Below, piece by piece: positions 21,124 to 37,032 of a stretch of DNA of 42,207 nt. The position numbers and the translations under genes are program-made. The stretch is from an uncultured Pirellulaceae bacterium (lineage in GTDB: Bacteria > Planctomycetota > Planctomycetia > Pirellulales > Pirellulaceae): contig CALDYR010000052.1 in NCBI GenBank assembly GCA_937944405.1, positions 1 through 42,207 on the forward strand. Direction: 5' to 3'. Within the stretch, counting starts at the first letter, position 1; every line of letters begins with the position of its first letter. The notes beneath the pieces were generated by a model. The model did no database searches and was not told the origin of the DNA. It saw only the letters and a list, made by a program, of their open reading frames with translations.

Positions 21124-22539
21124 CTAGGCATCGCGACTGCCTTCTTGTGGCGGCGTTGACAGCGATTCCAAGGTCTCCACCAAAATCATGTCTTGTTCCG
21201 GAAACACGGTTCGCAAATCGATCAACAGCGTGTCTTTTTGAACCCTGCCGATCACCGCCGGGGTGGCCGACCGCAACCTTGCCGCGATCCGATTGACCGA
21301 ACTATCTTGAGGTTCAACGGCGACACACCAGGTTGGGATTTTCTGCGTCGGCAAACTGCCTCCGCCCAACATGGATTGTGATTCGGCCACCACGCAAGAC
21401 TTCACCCACCGTTGGTCTTGAATCTGTTCGACAATTTTCTGAGCCCGCAATTTTAAATTCGCTTCGGGCATCGACAACATACGGAGGATGGGTACTTCCC
21501 GTTCAGCGGTTTCGGTGTTGCGATAAAGCCGCAGAGTGGCCGCAAGGGCGGCGAGCGTCATTTTGTCGACGCGCATCGCCCGCATCAGGGAATTCTTAAG
21601 CACTTGGTCGATGTATTTTCGTTTTCCGATGATAATGCCGCACTGCGGGCCACCGATCAGTTTGTCGCCACTGAATAAAACGATGTCCGCACCGTCTTTG
21701 ATGCTGTCCGCGACAACGGGTTCATTACTGAGCCCAAATTTAGCGAAATCGATCAACGCGCCGCTACCGACATCGTCAATCATCGGAAGATCGTGCGCGT
21801 GAGCGATACTGACGAGCTCTTTGGTGCTGACGGTATTGGTAAACCCTACCACTTCAAAGTTACTGGGGTGGACTTTGAGAATCGCGCTGGTTTCTTCGCC
21901 AACCGCAGAAGAATAATCCGCAGCGTGCGTTTTGTTAGTCGTGCCGACTTCTTTGAGCTTGCACCCACTGCATTCCATCACATCCGGCAGACGATAGCTA
22001 CCACCGATTTCAATCAATTGCCCACGGGAAACGATGACTTCTTTTCCGGTCGCGACTGTCGCCAACGCGATCATGGTCGCAGCGGCGTTGTTGTTGACCA
22101 CGACGGCTGCTTCAGCGCCGGTCAGTTCGCACAGCAATTTTTCGACCGCTTTGACGCGCTGGCCGCGCTGCCCGTCCGCCAAATCGATCTCGACACTGGC
22201 GTACCCCCGCGCGATGGCCATCGTTTCCTCGACCGCCGAATTCGCCAACGGCGCGCGGCCAAGCCCGGTGTGCAGGATGATGCCCGTACCGTTGATCACC
22301 GGCCGCAAATACGGTCGCTGTTCAACGTGTAACCAGTCCGCGATTTTTTCCGCCAGCTCTCCGGGAGCAGGGATCTCGATATCGTCGGTGGCCGCAGAAA
22401 TCGTTTCTTTGAGGTCATCGATGAAGGTGCGGACACCGTCAACGACCACTTGGTGGTTGACGGTCTGAACGATCTTTTTTAATTGAGGGCTCTCCAGCAG
22501 TTCATTGACCGACGGAATGTTGCGAAAGATATTAGCCAT
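21124..22539 (-). CDS. selA: L-seryl-tRNA(Sec) selenium transferase
   Basis: 471 aa from the ATG at 22539, chosen because MANIFRNIPSVNELLES matches the conserved bacterial SelA N-terminus; an upstream ATG at 22584 adds 15 unlike residues. SelA is a PLP enzyme that converts Ser-tRNA(Sec) to Sec-tRNA(Sec) using selenophosphate. The N-terminal tRNA-binding domain is present (residues 1-75), followed by the fold-type I PLP core with NGTGIILHTGLGRAPL near 83-98, the SRGQLIEIGGSYRLPDVM region, and the PLP lysine in FSGDKLIGGPQCG (Lys293). Its length and completeness argue against the shorter archaeal SelA-like proteins. No selB, selD or selC (tRNA-Sec) is in the window, so they must lie elsewhere if the pathway works. 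Confidence 0.94.
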   Translation of the reverse strand: MANIFRNIPSVNELLESPQLKKIVQTVNHQVVVDGVRTFIDDLKETISAATDDIEIPAPGELAEKIADWLHVEQRPYLRPVINGTGIILHTGLGRAPLANSAVEETMAIARGYASVEIDLADGQRGQRVKAVEKLLCELTGAEAAVVVNNNAAATMIALATVATGKEVIVSRGQLIEIGGSYRLPDVMECSGCKLKEVGTTNKTHAADYSSAVGEETSAILKVHPSNFEVVGFTNTVSTKELVSIAHAHDLPMIDDVGSGALIDFAKFGLSNEPVVADSIKDGADIVLFSGDKLIGGPQCGIIIGKRKYIDQVLKNSLMRAMRVDKMTLAALAATLRLYRNTETAEREVPILRMLSMPEANLKLRAQKIVEQIQDQRWVKSCVVAESQSMLGGGSLPTQKIPTWCVAVEPQDSSVNRIAARLRSATPAVIGRVQKDTLLIDLRTVFPEQDMILVETLESLSTPPQEGSRDA

Positions 22540-22669
22540 AGATCGACTCAAGTGGTTGGGCTGGTTGGATAGTTGTCCCCCCATTGTAACCGCTGGTTTC
22601 TGCGGTGGCAGTATCCAGAAAATCGGCGCTGCCCAAAAATACTATTGCCAAAATAAAATGATACGACGA

Positions 22670-23948: not shown

Positions 23949-25217
23949 TTAACGGCTTGCCGTCTCGATCGCGGGATTGGACTGCACTTCGGAGGCCAAT
24001 CGTTCGGTTATCGCGGCTAATTGGTCGTAATCGTGGTAGCCTTGAGCCACGTAGCGTACTGTTCCGGTACGATCAATAAACAGGGTCGTCGGCAGGAGCA
24101 CCTTGCCGGGTATCTGTTTTTTAATCGCTTCGGTTCCCATGCCTAAGGTGTAGTTAATACCGCTGTCGATCGCGAAACTTTTTACCGTGTCCACAGCAGC
24201 GGAAGGGTTATCGGTGTCGTCCATCGAGATCCCGATGACTTCAACATTTCTGTTTTGGAAATTCTTTTTCAATTCGATAAAGTGTGGGATACCTTCGCGA
24301 CATGGCGGACACCATGTTGCCCAAAGATCCACCACGGTGACCTTTCCGACCGACTGATCAGAGGTAATTTGGCCTCCGTTGATGTTGGCGAAGTTGTAAT
24401 CAATTTGGAAACTCTCGAACCCCGCCAACTGTTGACGGCTCCACTGGCGCACCTTCAAACGATATGCCGTTTGATGGCGTTTGACTAACGTGCGGAAACG
24501 GTTTTGATCCAATTCGGCGAACAATCGGTCGTTAGCGACCGCGTCGAAGTCCGTGTACCCAATTTCAAAGGCCGAAGCCATCGCCGCGAATGCCCCTGCG
24601 GTGTCGTTCTTGATTGCGTTAGCTTTCGCCAGATTGATCAGCGGTTGTCCAAGAATCTCTAACGATTCAGTGGGATAGCCCGGGTTGTGGCGGAGGTTCT
24701 GGGCAATTTTCCCTTGAGCTTGATAAAGTTGCGCCCCGATGCGCTCGTTCAGCGCGATGACACTGGTGGCCAGTTCCCCGAGGGCGGTCATAAAATGATA
24801 GGAAAGTTCAGCGTCGGTTTGCCCGTTGCAAATCTTGGACTTATGAAGAACGTTAGCCGCTTCGATCGCATGGTTCAGAATCCTTTTGTCGGATTCGCCT
24901 TCGATGTTGGCTAACATTGTCAGCACCTGAATGTAGCTGACGACAAAGGCAGGATCGTGGTTGGCCTGCTGGTAGGCACGGTTTGCCAGATCAAGGGCGC
25001 CATTGAGGTCATTGTTACCACCGATTTGCCTAGCCTGTTCCAGCATTTGGCTGGGCGCAGTCGTTTGACTGCCGCCGCCGGTTCCATCGTTGAAGCTTGT
25101 ATAGACACCGTTGTTGGCGCTGTGATGAGCCTGCGGGGTTGCGGCGAATGTGGATTGAAAATTAGAGGAACTGGCAATCAGCAAGATCGTTGAGCAAAGC
25201 ACCAAAATTGATCGCAT
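23949..25217 (-). CDS. Secreted TlpA-like thioredoxin-fold protein
   Basis: 422 aa. The ATG at 25217 is decided by AAGGAG six to seven bases upstream and by the signal peptide that follows (MRSILVLCSTILLIASSS, cleavage near TFAA); the ATG at 25241 is less likely. The first roughly 270 residues are helical and repeat-like, possibly TPR-type, containing LNGALDLANRAYQQAN. The C-terminal part is a TlpA/ResA-type thioredoxin domain with VVDLWATWCPPCREGIPHF, the WCPPC redox motif and the cis-Pro region LPTTLFID. Proteins of this design act as extracytoplasmic thiol-disulfide reductases, for example in cytochrome c maturation or repair of secreted cysteines. The nearby Cys-rich secreted protein could be a client, but that is inference. 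Confidence 0.9.
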   Translation of the reverse strand: MRSILVLCSTILLIASSSNFQSTFAATPQAHHSANNGVYTSFNDGTGGGSQTTAPSQMLEQARQIGGNNDLNGALDLANRAYQQANHDPAFVVSYIQVLTMLANIEGESDKRILNHAIEAANVLHKSKICNGQTDAELSYHFMTALGELATSVIALNERIGAQLYQAQGKIAQNLRHNPGYPTESLEILGQPLINLAKANAIKNDTAGAFAAMASAFEIGYTDFDAVANDRLFAELDQNRFRTLVKRHQTAYRLKVRQWSRQQLAGFESFQIDYNFANINGGQITSDQSVGKVTVVDLWATWCPPCREGIPHFIELKKNFQNRNVEVIGISMDDTDNPSAAVDTVKSFAIDSGINYTLGMGTEAIKKQIPGKVLLPTTLFIDRTGTVRYVAQGYHDYDQLAAITERLASEVQSNPAIETASR

Positions 25218-25590
25218 CCTAACTCCTTTTACTATCGTCATGGAAAGAGAAGCCGGTAAGTCTTCTTCCGTGAAGATATAGGCTGAAAGATGGAGCGTTT
25301 CGAAAAACGCCGCATCGAAAATTTCAGATTGTTAGGCTAACCATCTCTGGGGCGAACTCAAGCTAGAAGCCGTTTAATTTAGAGATAAAATCCGCAATGT
25401 GAGACAACTTACGAGAGCAACGCGGTGATTTGCAAGCCAAGAACGTGTTTCAAACAGGCATTTTTTTCTTAGTTTTTTCCAGAAGATTGTCTAAGCATTG
25501 TATCAAAGCGTTCAAAACAACGCGGGTGCCGAAATACGAGGTCCGACCGACTTAGCGCCCGTTTGATGATCGATCGGGCAACTGGCAGGC
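25218..25590. other. Intergenic region upstream of the TlpA-like gene
   Basis: About 370 bp between the TlpA-like gene and the 41-aa peptide gene. It should hold the promoter of the TlpA-like gene on the minus strand. I see no gene-like frame, strong terminator or repeat; the ORF at 25469-25690 (-) has no convincing start or product. Confidence 0.4.
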
Positions 25591-28320: not shown

Positions 28321-28345
28321 ATTTTGCGTGACAAGGAAGTCAAGC

Positions 28346-29608
28346 ATGAGACTATTTCTCAAACGAATACTCGCTCCAACAACCTTGATGGTAACGTTGC
28401 TATTTCTGCCTTGCTCGGGGTGCGCGGTGCTTCAAAAAGCTGGGAAGGACATCAAACAGACCTTCAAAAAGAGCAACAGGAACGAACTCAACGACGAAGA
28501 CGCGCTGGACCCGTTAGGGGCTCGCAGCGCCAACCGATTGTTGCTGGACGATCTTTCGCCAAGCCAAATCGGTACCACGCTGAAGACTCGTTTCGCAGCG
28601 GCGAAAGACCATAAAGCGGCCGAATCGGCTTACGCCCAGGGCGAACAGTATTACCAGCAGGGTACCGCAGCGATCAGTGCCAACCCTGATGGCGATCAGC
28701 ACGAACGCTACTTCATCAAAGCGGCCAACGAATTCAAAACCGCTGGTGCGTTGTGGCCCGACAGTTCGCTCGGCGAAGAGGCGCTTTTCTACCAGGGCGA
28801 ATCGTACTTTTTCGCCAACCGGTACGTACAAGCCAACCGCGCCTTTGAGGGGCTGATATCGCAGTATTCTGGCACCCGCTATTTAGACCGCGCCGAACAA
28901 CGGCGCTACGCGATCGCCATTTATTGGTTGGACCTCCAAAAGAACGGCGCTTCATTCGTTTCGTTGACCAACCACAAACGACCAAAATTCAACATGGGCT
29001 CCGAAGCGCGGAGAATCCTACACCGCATCCGCATCGACGATCCGTCAGGGAAACTTGCCGACGACGCTACGTTTGCACTGGGAACGTCTTACATGGAAAT
29101 CAACCAACACGAAGATGCCGCGGAAACGTTCTCTTACCTCAGGAAAGACTACCCCGGTAGCGAACACCAGTTCAAATCACAAATGCTGGAACTCGAATCT
29201 CGATTGAAGTCCTATCGTGGCCCCGACTACGATGGATTGCCATTGGTCGAAGCTGAAAAATTGCGAAAACAAATTGTCGCCCAGTTCCCCAACGAAGCCC
29301 AACAACACGCCGAACTCCTGAACCAACAGGGCTCACTGATCACCAACCAGTTGGCGCAACGCGATTACCGTATCGGAGAATTTTACGAATCCAAAGGCCA
29401 AAATCTGGCAGCGAAAATCTACTACGAAAATGTCCAAGAGAATCATGCCGACACAATTTTCGAAAATGGTTTGAGCGAAAAGATCGCCACCGTTGCTGCT
29501 AAACCAGCCAATCCGCCACCACCGGCTCAGTGGCTAACTAAGCTCTTCCCCGATGGCAATCCTGAAAAACCGATCATCTCTACTGCGGGGGAAACGATTT
29601 TCCGGTAA
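28346..29608 (+). CDS. BamD-like TPR outer-membrane lipoprotein
   Basis: 420 aa. The ATG at 28346 is preceded by AAGGAAG with about 8 nt spacing; an upstream GTG at 28328 is weaker. The lipoprotein signal ends CSGC. The mature part consists of helical repeats with the TPR/BamD-like pattern, for example ALFYQGESYFFANRYVQANR, then DDATFALGTSYMEINQHEDAAETFSYLRKDYPGSEHQF. BamD-type lipoproteins organise the machinery that inserts beta-barrel proteins in the outer membrane. This protein is longer than E. coli BamD (about 245 aa), so BamD-like or YbgF/CpoB-like is the safe wording. It lies downstream of recO and directly before an LptE-like gene, which fits an envelope-biogenesis role. Confidence 0.82.
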   Translation: MRLFLKRILAPTTLMVTLLFLPCSGCAVLQKAGKDIKQTFKKSNRNELNDEDALDPLGARSANRLLLDDLSPSQIGTTLKTRFAAAKDHKAAESAYAQGEQYYQQGTAAISANPDGDQHERYFIKAANEFKTAGALWPDSSLGEEALFYQGESYFFANRYVQANRAFEGLISQYSGTRYLDRAEQRRYAIAIYWLDLQKNGASFVSLTNHKRPKFNMGSEARRILHRIRIDDPSGKLADDATFALGTSYMEINQHEDAAETFSYLRKDYPGSEHQFKSQMLELESRLKSYRGPDYDGLPLVEAEKLRKQIVAQFPNEAQQHAELLNQQGSLITNQLAQRDYRIGEFYESKGQNLAAKIYYENVQENHADTIFENGLSEKIATVAAKPANPPPPAQWLTKLFPDGNPEKPIISTAGETIFR

Positions 29609-29665
29609 CGTTCAATAAAACGTTCGGTAAAAAAGATCGCTAAGGATTAACGCTATCTCAATGAG

Positions 29666-30214
29666 ATGAAACGCTCCATGATTTCTCCGACACCTATTTT
29701 CGCCAACCGATCCCTGCGCTGTTGGTGGCCGTTTTTAATCGCCGTCACGGTGGTGGCCTCGGGTTGCAGTAGCTACCACTTGGGCAACCAATTTCTTTTT
29801 CGCAGCGACATTCGCACTGTCCATGTGGCGGTGTTCGAATCGGGTTCCTACCGTCGGTTTTTAGGCCAACGTATGACTGAAGCGGTCATCAAACAAATTG
29901 CCAACAACACGCCGCTAACGATTACTGAACCGGCGTTGGCAAACAGTTTTTTGACGGGCCGAATCGTCCGGGATCGGAAATCTGTTGTCGGCGAAAACTT
30001 CACCGACGAACCGCGCTCTTTGGAGATCGACTGGCGTCTGGAAGTCGAATGGACCGATCGAACCGGTGCTCCGTTGATGCCTCGCCGATCTCTACGGATC
30101 GATCGCGGCGTCACCTTCATCCCCGAAGGCGGACAATCGCTGACCACGGCACAGCAACAGTTAATCGAACGGTTGGCCAGAGACATTGTGGGGCAAATGG
30201 AATTGCCATGGTGA
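29666..30214 (+). CDS. lptE: LptE-like LPS-assembly lipoprotein
   Basis: 182 aa. A signal peptide ends in the lipobox VASGC with a Cys near residue 35. The mature protein begins SSYHLGNQFLFRSDIRTVHVAVFES and continues SYRRFLGQRMTEAVIKQI, the layout of the LptE/RlpB family: a small alpha-beta plug inside the LptD channel that delivers lipopolysaccharide to the outer leaflet. The later strands (LTGRIVRDRKSVVGENF, SLEIDWRLEVEWTDR) fit. An alternative start four codons later (29678) cannot be excluded. LptD is not in the window. The stop overlaps the start region of the following thioredoxin gene, so an operon is likely. Confidence 0.83.
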   Translation: MKRSMISPTPIFANRSLRCWWPFLIAVTVVASGCSSYHLGNQFLFRSDIRTVHVAVFESGSYRRFLGQRMTEAVIKQIANNTPLTITEPALANSFLTGRIVRDRKSVVGENFTDEPRSLEIDWRLEVEWTDRTGAPLMPRRSLRIDRGVTFIPEGGQSLTTAQQQLIERLARDIVGQMELPW

Positions 30215-30270: not shown

Positions 30271-30828
30271 ATGAGCCAGCGCAACACGAATTTCAAATCT
30301 GTGATTGGCCGTCTCTGCCCACTGGTTATCGTGGTGATCTTAATGGTTGGATGCACCAACGGTTCGCCGGCGTCATTTTCAACGTCCAGCCTCTTCGCTA
30401 AACCAGAGGAATCGTTATCGGCGGCAGATCTAAAGACCGATCCGTCCTATTCCAAGTCAACTCAGTGGTTTGAATCTTACGAAAACGCTCAACGAGAGTC
30501 ACTTCGCACGGGCAAACCTATGCTGGCGCTTTTCACGGGAAGCGATTGGTGCGGGCCGTGTATTAGTCTTAAAAAACACGTTTTTGAATCAAGCGCATTT
30601 AAAAAGTGGGCGGCAGATGAAGTTGTTTTGTTGAAGCTCGATTTTCCTAAAAAGACGCCTCAGTCTCCAAAACTTAAAACACAGAATCAGCGATTGTCAC
30701 AAAAATACGCGATCAACAGTTATCCCACGATCTTGTTCTTAGACTCCGACGGGGAGGTACAGGGCAAGCAGGGGCACGGCACCGATGCTGTTCAGTGGAT
30801 CGCAGCAGCAGAACGAAAACTACGATAG
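30271..30828 (+). CDS. Thioredoxin-fold lipoprotein
   Basis: 185 aa from the ATG at 30271, supported by CAGGAAC about 5-6 nt upstream; the ATG at 30208, overlapping the lptE stop, would add 21 residues. The signal peptide ends LMVGC, a lipobox. The mature protein has a thioredoxin fold of the Thioredoxin_7/DsbD-gamma type: KPMLALFTGSDWCGPCISLK contains the redox CGPC motif, and SYPTILFLDSDG has the cis-proline. It probably acts in the periplasm or at the outer membrane. It is the last gene of the recO-bamD-like-lptE run, hinting that it keeps envelope proteins such as LptD correctly disulfide-bonded, but this is inferred from position only. Confidence 0.87.
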   Translation: MSQRNTNFKSVIGRLCPLVIVVILMVGCTNGSPASFSTSSLFAKPEESLSAADLKTDPSYSKSTQWFESYENAQRESLRTGKPMLALFTGSDWCGPCISLKKHVFESSAFKKWAADEVVLLKLDFPKKTPQSPKLKTQNQRLSQKYAINSYPTILFLDSDGEVQGKQGHGTDAVQWIAAAERKLR

Positions 30829-31322: not shown

Positions 31323-33146
31323 TTATGTAATCGAATCAGCGAAGGCCTGCATGTCTTGTTCGTAAGCGTCCAAACGCTGCTGGAGCTGCGCTTTGGCGGA
31401 CGCGAGGTCTTTGATTTCCTCTTTTGGCATGTAGGCAAACATATAGAACTTGACCTTCGGTTCGGTTCCCGATGGCCGCGCTGCCACGTAGTTGCCTTCG
31501 ACCACGGTATCGAACATCAGCAGATTGCCGACCGGCCCTTCGAATTTCTCTACTGAACCATCGGCAAATTTCTTTTCTAACACACTGAAGTCACGTACAC
31601 ATTCGACGTCCAAACCGCCAATCGATGACGGTGGAGAACTGCGGAACGTCTGCAGCAGTTTCTCCATTCGCTTCATCCCGTCAGACCCCTTCATTTGGAT
31701 GTTGACCAAACGTTCGCTGTGCAGACCGTACTTCAAGTACAGCTGGTCCATGTGCTGATGCAGCGATATCCCTTTGGCTTTAACTTCTGCGGCCAGTTCG
31801 GTCATCAACATGCAGGCTACCGCGCCGTCTTTGTCGCGGCAGTATTGACCGACCAAGTAGCCGTGTGATTCCTCGGTCCCTAAGATGAAATGCGCGGGGT
31901 CTTGGATGTCCATGACGCTACAAATCCATTTGAAACCGACCAGATTCTGGTAATGGCAACCGACGCCGTAGGCATCGCAAACCCGTTTAATCATCAATGT
32001 CGTCACCAGCGTAGTGACGACATAGTTTTCGGGCTTGAGATCGCCAGCGGACTTACGTTTCTCCATCACAAAATCGGCCAGCAGTACGCCCAATTGATTG
32101 CCGTTAAAGGTCGCCCAAGGGCCTGTCGGATCGGTGGTGACTGGGGCTGCGGCCCCCATGCGGTCGCAATCGGGATCGGTGGCAAGAATCAGTTCGCTGC
32201 GGTTGTTTTGTCCGTGTTGAATGATGGCATCAAATACAGCCACGTTTTCCGGATTGGACACGTGGCCAGGGACGTTGGGAAAATCTCCGTTGGGTTCGCG
32301 ATGCGGTTCGTAAATTTCTACCGAATCAAAACCGACGGTTTCCAGCAAGGTGCGAACATTGATTTCCCCGACGCCATGCAGCGGACTGTAGATGACCTTG
32401 AGTTCGCGCGGCCCGGGAAAACTTTGTTTGACATGTTCCGCTAACAGGGCTTGGTCGGTTTCTTGGGTGACGATGTGGATCTGTTGATTGGCAACCGCTT
32501 GGTCGAAGTTCGCAGCAGTGATCTCGTTGACCTGTTCGACTTTTCCGATGACGGCTGTGTCGTGCGGGGGAATCAGTTGAGCGCCGCTGGACCAATAAAC
32601 TTTCACCGCATTGTCGCTGGGTGGGTTGTGGCTGGCGGTGACCATGATGCCACAATCGCAGTTTTTGTGTCGGATTAAATATGATAGTTCGGGGGTGCTG
32701 CGATAATCGTCAATGAAATAGACTTCGAAACCGTTGGCCACCATGATGCCCGCGCACAGTTCCGCAAATTCGCGCGAACGATGCCGAGTGTCATACGCGA
32801 TGGCGAATTTCCAAGGCCCGGCAGGTTTGATTTCCTTCACATAGTCGGCCAATCCCTGAGCACTTTCGCCGATGGTGCGGGCGTTGATGGCGTTGCTACC
32901 GAAGGGATACATCATGCCCCGACGGCCACCGGTGCCGAAAGGAATCACTGTCCAAAAAACGTCATCCAGTTGCTTCCATTTTTCTTGGTCGATATGTTGG
33001 ACGATGTCGGCAACGTAGTCGGAGTATTTGGGCTCGGTTAGCCAACCGTTCAAATTTCCAGCAGCCGCAGGAGTGATTTTCTGCGCAGCTTTGGCTTGTT
33101 CAACAAGAGACTTGTATTGCTCGATATCGTGAGACGCGTCTGACAT
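31323..33146 (-). CDS. Phosphoglucomutase/phosphomannomutase family protein
   Basis: 607 aa. It interconverts hexose 1- and 6-phosphates through a phosphoserine. The key motifs are in order: FGTGGRRGMMYPFG near residues 70-83, the phosphoserine loop TASHNPPSDNAVK (Ser172), the metal loop ATDPDCDRMG near 320, the sugar loop GTEESHGYLVG, and the phosphate-binding loop RPSGTEPKVKFYMF near the C-terminus. At about 600 aa it belongs to the longer PGM2/ManB-like branch rather than GlmM. The start at 33146 has no strong ribosome-binding site but fits the family's N-terminal helix. It stands alone between a repeat-rich gap and the Cys-rich protein's 3' region. The enzyme class is secure; glucose versus mannose preference is not. 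Confidence 0.93.
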   Translation of the reverse strand: MSDASHDIEQYKSLVEQAKAAQKITPAAAGNLNGWLTEPKYSDYVADIVQHIDQEKWKQLDDVFWTVIPFGTGGRRGMMYPFGSNAINARTIGESAQGLADYVKEIKPAGPWKFAIAYDTRHRSREFAELCAGIMVANGFEVYFIDDYRSTPELSYLIRHKNCDCGIMVTASHNPPSDNAVKVYWSSGAQLIPPHDTAVIGKVEQVNEITAANFDQAVANQQIHIVTQETDQALLAEHVKQSFPGPRELKVIYSPLHGVGEINVRTLLETVGFDSVEIYEPHREPNGDFPNVPGHVSNPENVAVFDAIIQHGQNNRSELILATDPDCDRMGAAAPVTTDPTGPWATFNGNQLGVLLADFVMEKRKSAGDLKPENYVVTTLVTTLMIKRVCDAYGVGCHYQNLVGFKWICSVMDIQDPAHFILGTEESHGYLVGQYCRDKDGAVACMLMTELAAEVKAKGISLHQHMDQLYLKYGLHSERLVNIQMKGSDGMKRMEKLLQTFRSSPPSSIGGLDVECVRDFSVLEKKFADGSVEKFEGPVGNLLMFDTVVEGNYVAARPSGTEPKVKFYMFAYMPKEEIKDLASAKAQLQQRLDAYEQDMQAFADSIT

Positions 33147-33540
33147 GGATTGGAGTCCGCTATGTCTAGGGTTGAGTTAATTTGCAGGCGTAATCTTACT
33201 AAACATCTGGTGCTGACAACACCAGACAACACGGCCATCGAACTAGCGGCACGCCGCGAAAAAGCCCTCGTCATCGCGACAAGGGCTAAAGTGTTTCGAG
33301 CTACTCGTACAGGTTTAGCGCTGCCGAGGTTGCAGTCGACCGTTTCGTTTTTCGGTCACCCCTAATGATTCAAAAGGGAAATCAAGTCGCTCCGCACCGT
33401 CCTCAAATTTGTCAGTATCAGTCAATGCCGGTGAGTGAAGTGAGATTTTCGCAATCCCCGCCAGTGGCTAGGTGGTGGAACGATGGCCAATCTCACGACG
33501 GTGAACCGAAATTATCAAATTCCCAACCGCCCCCACTTAA
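33147..33540. other. 3' region of the Cys-rich gene and upstream region of the phosphomutase
   Basis: About 390 bp. A strong minus-strand terminator lies at 33259-33287, so the Cys-rich gene seems to have an unusually long 3' untranslated stretch of about 250 nt (33288-33540). No gene is supported on either strand. The remaining roughly 110 bp should hold the phosphomutase promoter. Confidence 0.5.
33259..33287 (-). terminator. Strong intrinsic terminator
   Basis: On the minus strand AGCCCTTGTC-GCGAT-GACGAGGGCT forms a 10-bp stem (one G-U pair) with a 5-nt loop, followed by TTTTCG. It faces transcripts coming from the Cys-rich gene and shields the phosphomutase gene. Confidence 0.8.
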
Positions 33541-34308
33541 TCAACTGCCGCAGCCACAGTCGCCGCCGCAAGCGCCGGTCAGGCAACCGCTGACGCAGCT
33601 TTGCATGCCGCCGTTACCGTACTCATACCCAACGGCTTGATCGAAGTAGCCACCGCAGGATCCGCAGTTGTCACAGCCGCCAGAGAGAAAGCTGCATGAG
33701 CTGCATGCGTCAGACGATGCGAATCCGGCGTAGGCGTTGCGTGAATGACGGGCCAAGGCGTTGTTGAAAATGCGCCCTTTGATACCGCATCCGCCACTGA
33801 GGCATCCGCCACTGAGGCACCCGCCACGGCCGCAACTGCTGATTGGGCCTGCCGAGTGCAATGCGGCCAGTTTCGCCTTCAGACCGCAACCGCATCCGCC
33901 GCTTAAATGACCGCCACCACATCCGCAGCTGCTGTAGCTGCCAATGTTGCCAAATCCGCCACCGCAACCGCAACCACATGAAGGATAACCGAAGCATCCT
34001 CCGCCACCGAGGCAGCCTCCGCCGTTCTTCAGACCACAACCTCCGCCGTGACCTCTAAGCAGACCTTGCCGCCGTGGTCCGGTGTAAGCACAGTTGTCGG
34101 TGCAGTATCCTGCCCACAAAGACGCGGCTTGGGCCGAGCTGATTCCACGACCACAGTTACTGTTGTAATCAGCAGATCTAAAGCCGCCTTGATTACCAAA
34201 TACGCCGGCGCCTCCGCCACATCCACAGCCCTGAGCTGAAGCCGATGTTCCAGTCGAACCAACAGCAAAAATCGCCGTCGCAATCATCGCAATCATTTTA
34301 AAATTCAT
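33541..34308 (-). CDS. Secreted cysteine/glycine-rich protein, unrecognised
   Basis: 255 aa. GAGGAAA 6-8 nt upstream supports the ATG at 34308. A standard signal peptide (MNFKMIAMIATAIFAVGSTG, cleavage near ASA) is followed by a mature chain with about 29 cysteines and very many glycines, in repeats such as GGGC, CGCGCGGG and CLSGGCLSGGC. Short non-repetitive blocks (SSAQAASLWAGYCTDNCAYTG and NALARHSRNAYAGF) break the pattern. There is no known domain, membrane anchor or lipobox. Composition suggests an extracellular or wall structural protein cross-linked by disulfides, or a metal binder. Planctomycete envelopes have long been described as cysteine-rich, so a wall role is plausible but inferred. 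A receiver-domain gene lies divergently 570 bp away, and the terminator is about 250 nt downstream. Confidence 0.85.
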   Translation of the reverse strand: MNFKMIAMIATAIFAVGSTGTSASAQGCGCGGGAGVFGNQGGFRSADYNSNCGRGISSAQAASLWAGYCTDNCAYTGPRRQGLLRGHGGGCGLKNGGGCLGGGGCFGYPSCGCGCGGGFGNIGSYSSCGCGGGHLSGGCGCGLKAKLAALHSAGPISSCGRGGCLSGGCLSGGCGIKGRIFNNALARHSRNAYAGFASSDACSSCSFLSGGCDNCGSCGGYFDQAVGYEYGNGGMQSCVSGCLTGACGGDCGCGS

Positions 34309-34878
34309 TTTGTATTTCCTCGTAACATTTGTATTTCTGACAGCTCACGTTTGCACAACGCACAGCACTTGGGTCGATTTCATTCGCCAGAATGATTGGT
34401 TCGATAGAATCTAAGTCCAAGGTTCAATCCAAGGTTCAATTGTGCCTTCGGTTTGATAAGCACACGTATCGAATCGGCAGGCAGCAGAAGAGGGCTGAGT
34501 GAATTCACGATTGTGGTTAGTTAATTTTTTTTACGTTGAACCCTATGACGGCCAGTGCAATGAACGCAATCAGTGAAGACGATTCGATTAACCAAGCGAT
34601 CCGGTTGGTCACAGCTGGGAAGACTCGCGCGGAACAACACGGCCATTAACGGGTGTTTAATCGCTACGTTTTGTTCAATCGGAGGTCGTTTAAACCGGTG
34701 AAACTTTGTCGATCAGTGAACCGATACCGATTGATAACGAGGGCTCGATCGCCCAAACGTGTTGAAGGTGAAACCAACTCACCGACGCTTGCCGGCGCGA
34801 TCGAACCGTCGTACGGAAAAGGAAGTCCAGTTGCTGAAGGATCGGCAGACGTAACATGATCTCAATTGGAATCCAGCC
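34309..34878. other. Divergent region between the Cys-rich protein and receiver-domain genes
   Basis: 570 bp, long enough to hold both promoters and operators. It includes an exact 12-bp duplication (34416-34439) and an AT-rich stretch near 34520. A 29-codon frame (34560-34649) and a 68-codon frame (34653-34859) lack ribosome-binding sites and are not called. Confidence 0.5.
34416..34439. repeat. Exact 12-bp tandem duplication
   Basis: TCCAAGGTTCAA occurs twice in a row (34416-34427, 34428-34439), about 110 bp upstream of the Cys-rich gene; it could be a doubled operator or slippage. Confidence 0.9.
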
Positions 34879-35388
34879 ATGCCTCAACAGTTCACTCGGC
34901 CAACGATCCTTGTCATTGACGCCGACGAAGTTTCTTGCCAATTCGCCTGTGCGGCGCTGATGTCGCACGGTTACCAGACAATTCCTGCGGCCGACATCGC
35001 GGCAGCGATTTGGGCGGCGTCTGAACGCGATACGAATTTGGATTTAATCCTTTGCGACACGCAAGTCGACCAGCAAACCGGTGTCGAGATTGTCGATGCA
35101 ATAAAACGATTACCGTTTCGCCATGACCTGCCCGCAATGTTCACTTCAGTACATCAGGTAACCGACGTCGCCCTCAAGCGACACGCCGCCGGTGGTGCCT
35201 ACCATATCAAAAAACCGTTTGACCTCGAATTGTTATTCGAATTGGTCAACCGATCACTCTGGATGCCACACTTGGTTAAAAACCATATCGAAAAACACCA
35301 CGCCGCCCAACCACTGGCGACTCCCCATGCGGCGTTCGCGTCGGTCCAGTATCCGTCTACGATCAACATGACATCGTTCGTGAACTGA
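34879..35388 (+). CDS. Stand-alone response-regulator receiver domain protein
   Basis: 169 aa. A CheY-like receiver domain fills residues 8-130: acidic pair in ILVIDADE, phospho-acceptor Asp in LDLILCDTQVDQQTG, the conserved Ser/Thr position in AMFTSVHQ, and the Lys in YHIKKPFDLE. All the residues needed for phosphorylation are present. The remaining 35-40 residues are a short His/Ala-rich tail without an output domain, so it would signal through protein contacts. No histidine kinase gene is in the window. It diverges from the Cys-rich secreted-protein gene, and control of that gene is conceivable but unproven. The ATG has no strong ribosome-binding site. Confidence 0.87.
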   Translation: MPQQFTRPTILVIDADEVSCQFACAALMSHGYQTIPAADIAAAIWAASERDTNLDLILCDTQVDQQTGVEIVDAIKRLPFRHDLPAMFTSVHQVTDVALKRHAAGGAYHIKKPFDLELLFELVNRSLWMPHLVKNHIEKHHAAQPLATPHAAFASVQYPSTINMTSFVN

Positions 35389-35709
35389 ATCTTGTTCCGC
35401 CGATGTCCTGCCAAGATTCTGCCGGCGCCGCGACCGCTGCTGCAAAAAGAGACCGCGCCATGAAAGATACTTCAAACCGGTTCCATGCAGCCACACGCGT
35501 TTAAAACAGAGGTGAGACACGTCCACCAATGTCCTCATTCTGTATCGTGGTTTCACGTGACGCGGCGAAAAAAGGATCGGTTAAACAGCGGAGGATTGCG
35601 GATTTGCAATCCGTGGTTAGGGCTCAGCGCATAAAAACACGGCGCTTGAAAGTTCAAGCGCCGTTTGCGCGTTTTAGCTGTTGAGATCGCAAACGCGATC
35701 AAAATAGGC
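35389..35709. other. Intergenic region between convergent receiver-domain gene and ahcY
   Basis: About 320 bp. It contains a small hairpin (GGATTGC/GCAATCC, 35593-35612) and the ahcY terminator (35632-35664). No gene is supported. Confidence 0.5.
35632..35664 (-). terminator. Strong intrinsic terminator of ahcY
   Basis: ACGGCGCTTGAA (35639-35650) pairs perfectly with TTCAAGCGCCGT (35653-35664), a 12-bp stem with a 2-nt loop on paper. On the minus strand it is followed by GTTTTTA, as expected for termination of ahcY. It may also stop plus-strand transcripts. Confidence 0.85.
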
Positions 35710-37032
35710 TTAGTATCGGTAGTGCTCTGGCTTGTAAGGTCCTTCTACGGGAACACCGATATAGTCGGCTTGTTCTTGGCTCAGCTTTGTCAATTTCACT
35801 CCAAGTTGTTCTAAGTGCAATCGTGCGACTTCTTCGTCCAAGTGTTTCGGCAACATGTGGACACCGATCTCGTACTTGTCAGTTTCTTCCCACAGAGTCA
35901 ATTGAGCCATAACTTGGTTAGTGAAGCTATTTGACATCACGAATGACGGATGCCCTTTTGCACAACCAAGATTCACCAAACGACCTTCAGCCAACAGGAT
36001 GATTGAATTGCCGTTTTTGAAAGTGTAACGATCGACTTGCGGTTTAATCTCTTCCTTTTCGACTGTTCCAGCGACGACATCTTTTTCAAGATCGTCAACG
36101 TCGATTTCATTTTGGAAATGACCGATGTTGCAAACGATGGCGTCGTTTGGCATCTGCTCCAAGTGGGCTTTGGTGATCACGCCGCAGTTTCCAGTGGTTG
36201 TTACAAAGATGTTTCCGCGGGACGCCGCTTCTTCCATCGTTGTAATTTCGAAACCTTCCATCGCAGCCTGCAACGCGTTGATCGGATCAATCTCAGTCAC
36301 GATAACTCGGCCACCGTAACGCTGCATTGAATGAGCACAACCTTTGCCGACATCGCCATAACCACAGACAACAACAACCTTGCCAGCGATCATCACATCG
36401 GTGGCGCGCTTAATACCATCAGCCAGAGACTCGCGGCAGCCGTAAAGGTTATCGAACTTGCTCTTGGTGACCGAATCGTTCACGTTGATCGCCGGCAATT
36501 TCAATTCGCCTTTGGCGTGACGCTGGTACAAACGGTGAACGCCTGTTGTCGTCTCTTCAGAAAGCCCCTTAATTCCAGCCAACAATTCAGGAAACTGATC
36601 GTGAACCATGTTGGTCAGATCACCACCGTCGTCAAGAATCATGTTAAGCGGTTGGCCATCAGGGAAAATGATCGTTTGCTCGATGCACCAGTTGAACTCT
36701 TCTTCGGTCATGCCCTTCCAAGCGTAAACCGGGATGCCAGCGGCGGCGATCGCGGCGGCGGCAGGGTCATGAGTCGAGAAAACGTTGCAGCTTGACCAGG
36801 TGACATCTGCACCCAACTCAACCAACGTTTCAATCAGAACTGCGGTCTGAACGGTCATGTGAAGGCAACCCGCGATGCGAGCGCCTTTGAGTGGTTTTGA
36901 GTTGCCGTACTTCTTACGAAGCGACATCAATCCCGGCATCTCGTTCTCAGCAAGTCGAATCTCGCGACGTCCGAGTTCGGCTTCTGCAATGTTTTTTACT
37001 TTGTAAGGCATCTTCGTTTCGACGTTAGCCAC
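35710..37032 (-). CDS. ahcY: S-adenosylhomocysteine hydrolase
   Basis: 440 aa. It splits S-adenosylhomocysteine into adenosine and homocysteine, removing the inhibitor made by methyltransferases. The sequence is strongly conserved: [17 protein letters not shown] near residues 54-70, [17 protein letters not shown] near 80-96, the NAD-binding loop [14 protein letters not shown] near 217-230, and a C-terminus ending KPEHYRY, where Lys/Tyr contact NAD across the dimer. The GTG at 37032 is the start, because AGGAG lies about 6 nt upstream. Because it uses SAHase rather than Pfs/LuxS, the cell probably recycles SAH by the one-step route. I see no SAH riboswitch in the 285 bp upstream. It ends in a strong terminator. 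Confidence 0.97.

Follow-up and report, generated by a model that had tools for sequence, protein, structure and literature searches.

In a 42,207-nucleotide stretch from an uncultured Pirellulaceae bacterium (contig C52 of a 3.95 Mb genome; hereafter the window), the gene for a secreted protein rich in glycine and cysteine lies divergent from, and 570 bp away from, the gene for a stand-alone receiver protein. Both genes were detected in 26 of the 28 genomes of the genus, and in 21 of these 26 they are adjacent and divergent. The two products are probably partners in one process, possibly the construction of a component of the cell surface. Our preferred reading, offered tentatively and with slightly less than even confidence, is that the pair is a vertically inherited, genus-level module made up of a disulfide-stabilised surface protein and a single-domain regulator impaired in phosphorylation. 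A search of the literature returned no description of this gene pair, although a published account may exist all the same.

The gene pair across the genus

An earlier inspection of the letters of the window (the sequence-only reading) had described the divergent layout with a stand-alone receiver, and both the coordinates and the match to the receiver family PF00072 agree with it. It had also proposed to look for the pairing among relatives, and would have given way if close relatives lacked homologues or if the pairing was not conserved. Homologues are present in 27 of the 28 genus genomes, and the adjacent divergent pair was found in G000-G003, G006-G009, G011-G017, G019-G022, G024 and G025. 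A separate search with the receiver alone retrieved receivers adjoining the cysteine-rich genes. Neither gene was matched in G004, a genus genome that is 80% complete; in G018 the cysteine-rich gene sits at a contig end with no receiver match, and pairing could not be judged there.

The genes on the outer sides of the pair are much more changeable. Outer neighbours on the cysteine-rich side fell into 9 families in 20 loci (8 if one doubtful small open reading frame (ORF) is discounted) and those on the receiver side into 9 families in 16 loci, with loci cut by contig ends excluded, whereas the inner partner was constant; neighbouring ORFs were chosen by length and not by a gene finder, so that most families are singletons and some are perhaps miscalls. 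Because the outer neighbours vary while the inner partner stays, the pairing, as judged from gene order, appears to be more than simple inertia. The gene contexts track the clades in both the cysteine-rich and the receiver trees, many branches of which are weak, and the 21 paired loci therefore represent about seven independent contexts, not 21 independent events. The divergence of the two proteins was also correlated (r 0.91, with 0 of 2000 permutations as high). Common descent predicts the same correlation, so that it does not count here towards an interaction.

In the other 20 paired loci, the intergenic region is about 464-777 bp long, with some receiver starts placed by alignment and not at a start codon. 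A promoter scan of positions 32900-35800 of the window found none, with 1.8 expected, and Rfam gave no match at gathering score between 33100 and 35800. One clade (L069, L070, L073 and L075-L078) shows strong conservation of about 100 bp 5' of the receiver start, which may represent either a coding extension or a regulatory element.

Where the two genes lie apart, other neighbours recur. The cysteine-rich gene of all five unpaired genomes (L074, L079, L080, L082, L223) adjoins what we take to be a gene for a YhaN-like ATPase, and the receiver genes of L081, L085 and L087 adjoin genes presumably encoding transhydrogenase-like subunits. The unpaired cysteine-rich genes of L074, L079 and L082 are short, encoding 126-140 residues with 4-12 cysteines. 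For receiver loci of other genera (L088-L097), no cysteine-rich gene was seen among the two or fewer neighbours listed per side, which were crudely chosen.

The receiver and its metal site

The receiver ORF encodes 169 residues, of which 10-123 match PF00072 with 47.5 bits (curated cut-off 30.2), and the receiver fold is backed by a structural match. Pfam found only this domain, which places the protein among the single-domain response regulators. Residues 131-169 have a predicted local distance difference test score (pLDDT) below 50 almost throughout. An LWMPHL-like motif past the last helix is common to stand-alone receivers of other genera in the order (L088-L097).

The sequence-only reading had credited the receiver with all of the phosphorylation residues, and on this point it was mistaken. 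A canonical phosphorylated receiver requires an acidic residue at position DD2, which contacts the metal directly and where the window protein has A15; the other four residues are present, namely D14 at DD1, D60, S90 at the threonine position, and K112. DD2 is acidic in none of the 26 genus receivers aligned (A in 12, S in 9, T and P in 2 each, R in 1), among which the phospho-site D is found in 20, K in 21, and S or T in 16. With Ala15 in place of an acidic residue at DD2, the window receiver is, by its residues, a pseudo-receiver under the definition of PMC12632262.

DD2 is also non-acidic in the four sister-genus receivers checked and in G133. Receivers from other genera that carry an LWMPHL-like tail have an intact D-D-D-S-K set in 7 of 10 cases, all seven belonging to other families of the order. 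Because the sister-genus receivers and G133 lack the acidic DD2 and these seven keep it, loss of the metal site probably preceded the pairing. Within the window genome, DD2 is acidic in 18 of the 24 distinct receiver picks readable at that position, the window receiver included (30 loci less 5 duplicate picks and 1 gap). The phospho-site aspartate is present in 20 of the 21 paired genus receivers versus 0 of the 5 unpaired ones, a hint that this site has kept its importance in genomes with an unbroken pair. Once phylogeny is considered, the difference amounts to about two events, and sister-genus receivers keep the aspartate though unlinked. Given its retention in 20 of 21, paired receivers may still be phosphorylated.

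The cysteine-rich family

The secreted protein is 255 residues long, with exactly 29 cysteines and about 27% glycine. By a scripted rule of thumb, its N-terminus has the pattern of a type I signal peptide, a hydrophobic stretch followed by an AXA-like site with the cut between TSASA and QGC. A cut between A and Q was found in 21 of 26 homologues, the starts of which were hand-picked; in L068 and L080 the cut follows A with a residue other than Q next, and L074, L079 and L082 fit poorly. The sequence-only reading had described a chain with a signal peptide and about 29 cysteines, a clear Shine-Dalgarno sequence and no known domain. All of this was borne out, with GAGG read directly before the ATG and no Pfam or NCBIfam match to the protein up to E 1. 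A strong terminator had also been placed about 250 nt downstream. A hairpin with a 10-pair stem and a T run is indeed there, but "strong" was slightly generous: it folds at -18.7 kcal/mol (z -2.3), 4 of 200 shuffles were equally good, and the terminator scan did not include it. A profile of the family had no match among PDB sequences up to E 1 and, because Pfam, NCBIfam and PDB are all silent, the protein is on these searches a previously undescribed family.

The distribution of the family was traced with a long profile built from 19 of the proteins and, separately, with a 28-residue N-terminal block. At E 0.01 the long profile matched 27 of 241 genomes of the bacterial family, comprising 26 of 28 in the genus and 1 of 213 others, with a single match per genome; at E 0.001 it matched 11 of 396 genomes of the order, all from the same genus. 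The block matched 35 of the 241 genomes: 27 of 28 in the genus, 4 of the sister genus g38 (a count without a denominator), G133 (1.8e-5) and 3 weakly (7e-4 to 6e-3). Among 397 genomes of the class it matched 5, these being the window genome, one g38 genome and 3 weak matches. Nothing in G133 or G080 passed the motif filter for the protein, and beyond the genus and g38 there was no convincing match in the family, order and class samples. The relatives L031 and L032 are uncultured Pirellulaceae.

The alignment opens with the N-terminal block, and many rows also have a CFGYP-like motif; the Gly/Cys middle is variable, and a further conserved block, around YFxxxVGYEYGxxGxQS, lies towards the C-terminus (Table 1). 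The commonest form of the first block is C-G-R-G-[IV]-x4-A-x2-L-W-x2-Y-C-x3-C. The spacing of the glycine-rich parts differs widely among clades, while 13 of the 29 cysteine columns of the window protein hold cysteine in at least 19 of 21 paired homologues, and 21 of 28 ungapped cysteines are invariant in the close trio. Both genes are real and under purifying selection. For the trio, the ratio of nonsynonymous to synonymous divergence (dN/dS) is 0.06-0.12 for the cysteine-rich gene (3 pairs; for example, dN 0.21 and dS 2.0 for the window against L060, and 0.05 and 0.84 for L059 against L060). For the receiver, two of the three pairs could be computed and gave 0.02-0.08. In the trio dS is near saturation. 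In another clade the ratio for the cysteine-rich gene reaches about 0.14, with dS not computable for some pairs.

Table 1. Features of the gene pair, in window positions
Feature	Position	Strand	Basis
Gly/Cys-rich secreted protein gene, new family by the searches made	33541..34308	-	ORF, composition, family searches, dN/dS
Predicted signal peptide, 25 residues	34234..34308	-	Scripted rule of thumb, no dedicated predictor
N-terminal signature block, 28 residues (NCGRGISSAQAASLWAGYC...C)	34081..34164	-	Ungapped across 21 homologues chosen for alignment
C-terminal conserved block (CGSCGGYFDQAVGYEYGNGGMQSCVS)	33589..33666	-	Alignment; limits by eye
Terminator-like hairpin beyond the stop of the cysteine-rich gene	33250..33300	-	Folding against shuffles; absent from terminator scan
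Shared intergenic region, 570 bp	34309..34878	.	Between the divergent genes
Stand-alone pseudo-receiver (D14, A15, D60, S90, K112), LWMPHL helix, low-confidence C-terminal tail	34879..35388	+	Pfam, alignment, model

Elsewhere in the window, a gene for SelA, the selenocysteine synthase, lies at 21124-22584 (- strand), and the organism may use selenocysteine. YfiO/BamD-like and LptE genes adjoin each other at 28328-30214 (+ strand), consistent with an outer membrane.

Interpretation and comparison with known systems

The secretion signal and the conserved cysteines suggest disulfides outside the cytoplasm, most likely formed in the periplasm or beyond it. Because the chain is rich in glycine and cysteine and variable in length, a structural or matrix role is suggested, and the protein, cross-linked by its disulfides, would make up a small part of the cell surface or of the extracellular matrix. 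The receiver, presumably cytosolic, has no output domain and a low-confidence tail, and it would therefore likely act through protein contact, by analogy with EpsW or FrzS (below). It would probably bind another protein, and it may adjust expression, export or assembly of its secreted partner. We consider it unlikely that the two genes form a dedicated switch, with a receiver that lacks its metal site, and is perhaps permanently active, governing how a disulfide-linked surface protein from a new family is produced or assembled.

Several results weigh against an inherited module. The pair is split in 5 of the 26 genomes, by about 48 kb (G005) and 53 kb (G010) on the same contig and onto different contigs in G023, G026 and G027; G027 retains a full protein with 38 cysteines beside another gene. 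Linkage is therefore not essential. Four sister-genus genomes with the N-terminal block have their best receiver match on another contig, with the phospho-site aspartate kept. Six relatives of the receiver were scanned for PF00072, and three paired partners failed the cut-off (L067 and L071 without a match, L072 with 13.4 bits) while L069, L086 and L087 passed; the eroded partner in G012 (L067) was nevertheless recovered from the 82 ORFs of its locus (E 2.8e-17) by a receiver profile that did not include it, and those in G009 (L071) and G020 (L072) match the window receiver at 8e-15 and 5e-11. Words common to clades in the intergenic regions were no more frequent than in simple letter shuffles (18 of 21 regions), and direct gene control is unlikely for a receiver without an output domain. 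Structure prediction for the cysteine-rich protein was unusable (mean pLDDT 42, predicted template modelling score 0.16). The sequence-only reading had suggested that two thiol-redox proteins encoded in the window help to fold the protein, but they were rejected as part of a module. Neither the 30271-30828 product nor that of the other gene, which is present but extends over 23949-25241 (- strand) instead of 23949-25217, travels with the pair; at E 1e-3 neither matched any ORF of 40 other loci centred on cysteine-rich or receiver genes, whose flanks span about 10 kb or less and are in several cases cut by contig ends. In the window, the second gene and the pair are separated by more than 8 kb.

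The lack of a shared intergenic motif and the cases without linkage (four genomes of the sister genus, and 5 of 26 in the genus) would also suit a pair that stays together neutrally, or because both genes draw on one divergent promoter region, with products in separate processes. The repeated change of the immediate outer neighbours around a constant pair argues against this explanation, which we regard as doubtful. A rather improbable alternative is that the protein is a disulfide-folded secreted adhesin, signal or effector with functional ends and a middle that serves as spacer; two conserved end blocks, a variable middle and one match per genome fit that description, and the finding of no domain of known function speaks against it. 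Slightly less probable still is a secreted protein that binds metal or has redox activity and whose function the receiver-like protein senses or adjusts, for although very many cysteines stand at conserved positions and their number is odd in the window protein (as in just 12 of 26 homologues), the likely export into an oxidising place, the widely varying glycine-rich spacing and the absence of a family match all tell against it.

A last point against a surface module comes from the YTV proteins (PF07639), which are reported from cell wall preparations of planctomycetes (PMC8567305). They match in 28 of 28 genus genomes, with 16 matches in the window genome, and because every genus genome already has them, a wall role of the present protein is not needed to explain cysteine-rich walls. 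The likeness is that both are cysteine-rich planctomycete proteins. PF07639 is, however, absent from the window protein and from all 19 of the family members scanned (no family was found in them), and the present protein is far shorter than the YTV-matching open frames, its spread being at the genus level. It would thus be a second, unrelated kind of cysteine-rich secreted protein in planctomycetes, where cysteine-rich wall proteins have long been discussed.

For the receiver, the constitutively active PhoB mutant D10A/D53E (PDB 2jb9) was among the structural and sequence matches. Two unpaired receivers, L081 and L085, have Ala at DD2 together with Glu at the phospho-site. By PhoB numbering, and by our own reading of the register instead of an alignment to 2jb9, D10A presumably corresponds to A15 of the window receiver, and we take the Ala and Glu of L081 and L085 to correspond to the D10A and D53E of the 2jb9 title. 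PhoB carries a DNA-binding output domain.

Closer in architecture is EpsW of Myxococcus xanthus, a single-domain response regulator that shares the eps locus with the genes for the surface product under its control (PMC12802240). EpsW likewise is a stand-alone receiver and works through protein contact; it differs in being active when phosphorylated and in having an enzyme target, whereas the window receiver has a defective metal site. The pseudo-receiver of FrzS also acts by protein contact (PMC12632262). According to this 2025 perspective, DD2 is non-acidic in about 80% of pseudo-receivers, acting without phosphorylation is common among them though outside their definition, and the on/off switching of the bacterial ones is termed a mystery. 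Compared with the known bacterial pseudo-receivers covered there, the present one is instead stand-alone, and gene order links it to a cysteine-rich protein that is predicted to be secreted. For a pseudo-receiver of this kind, the secreted partner kept adjacent to it across most of a genus is a concrete candidate client.
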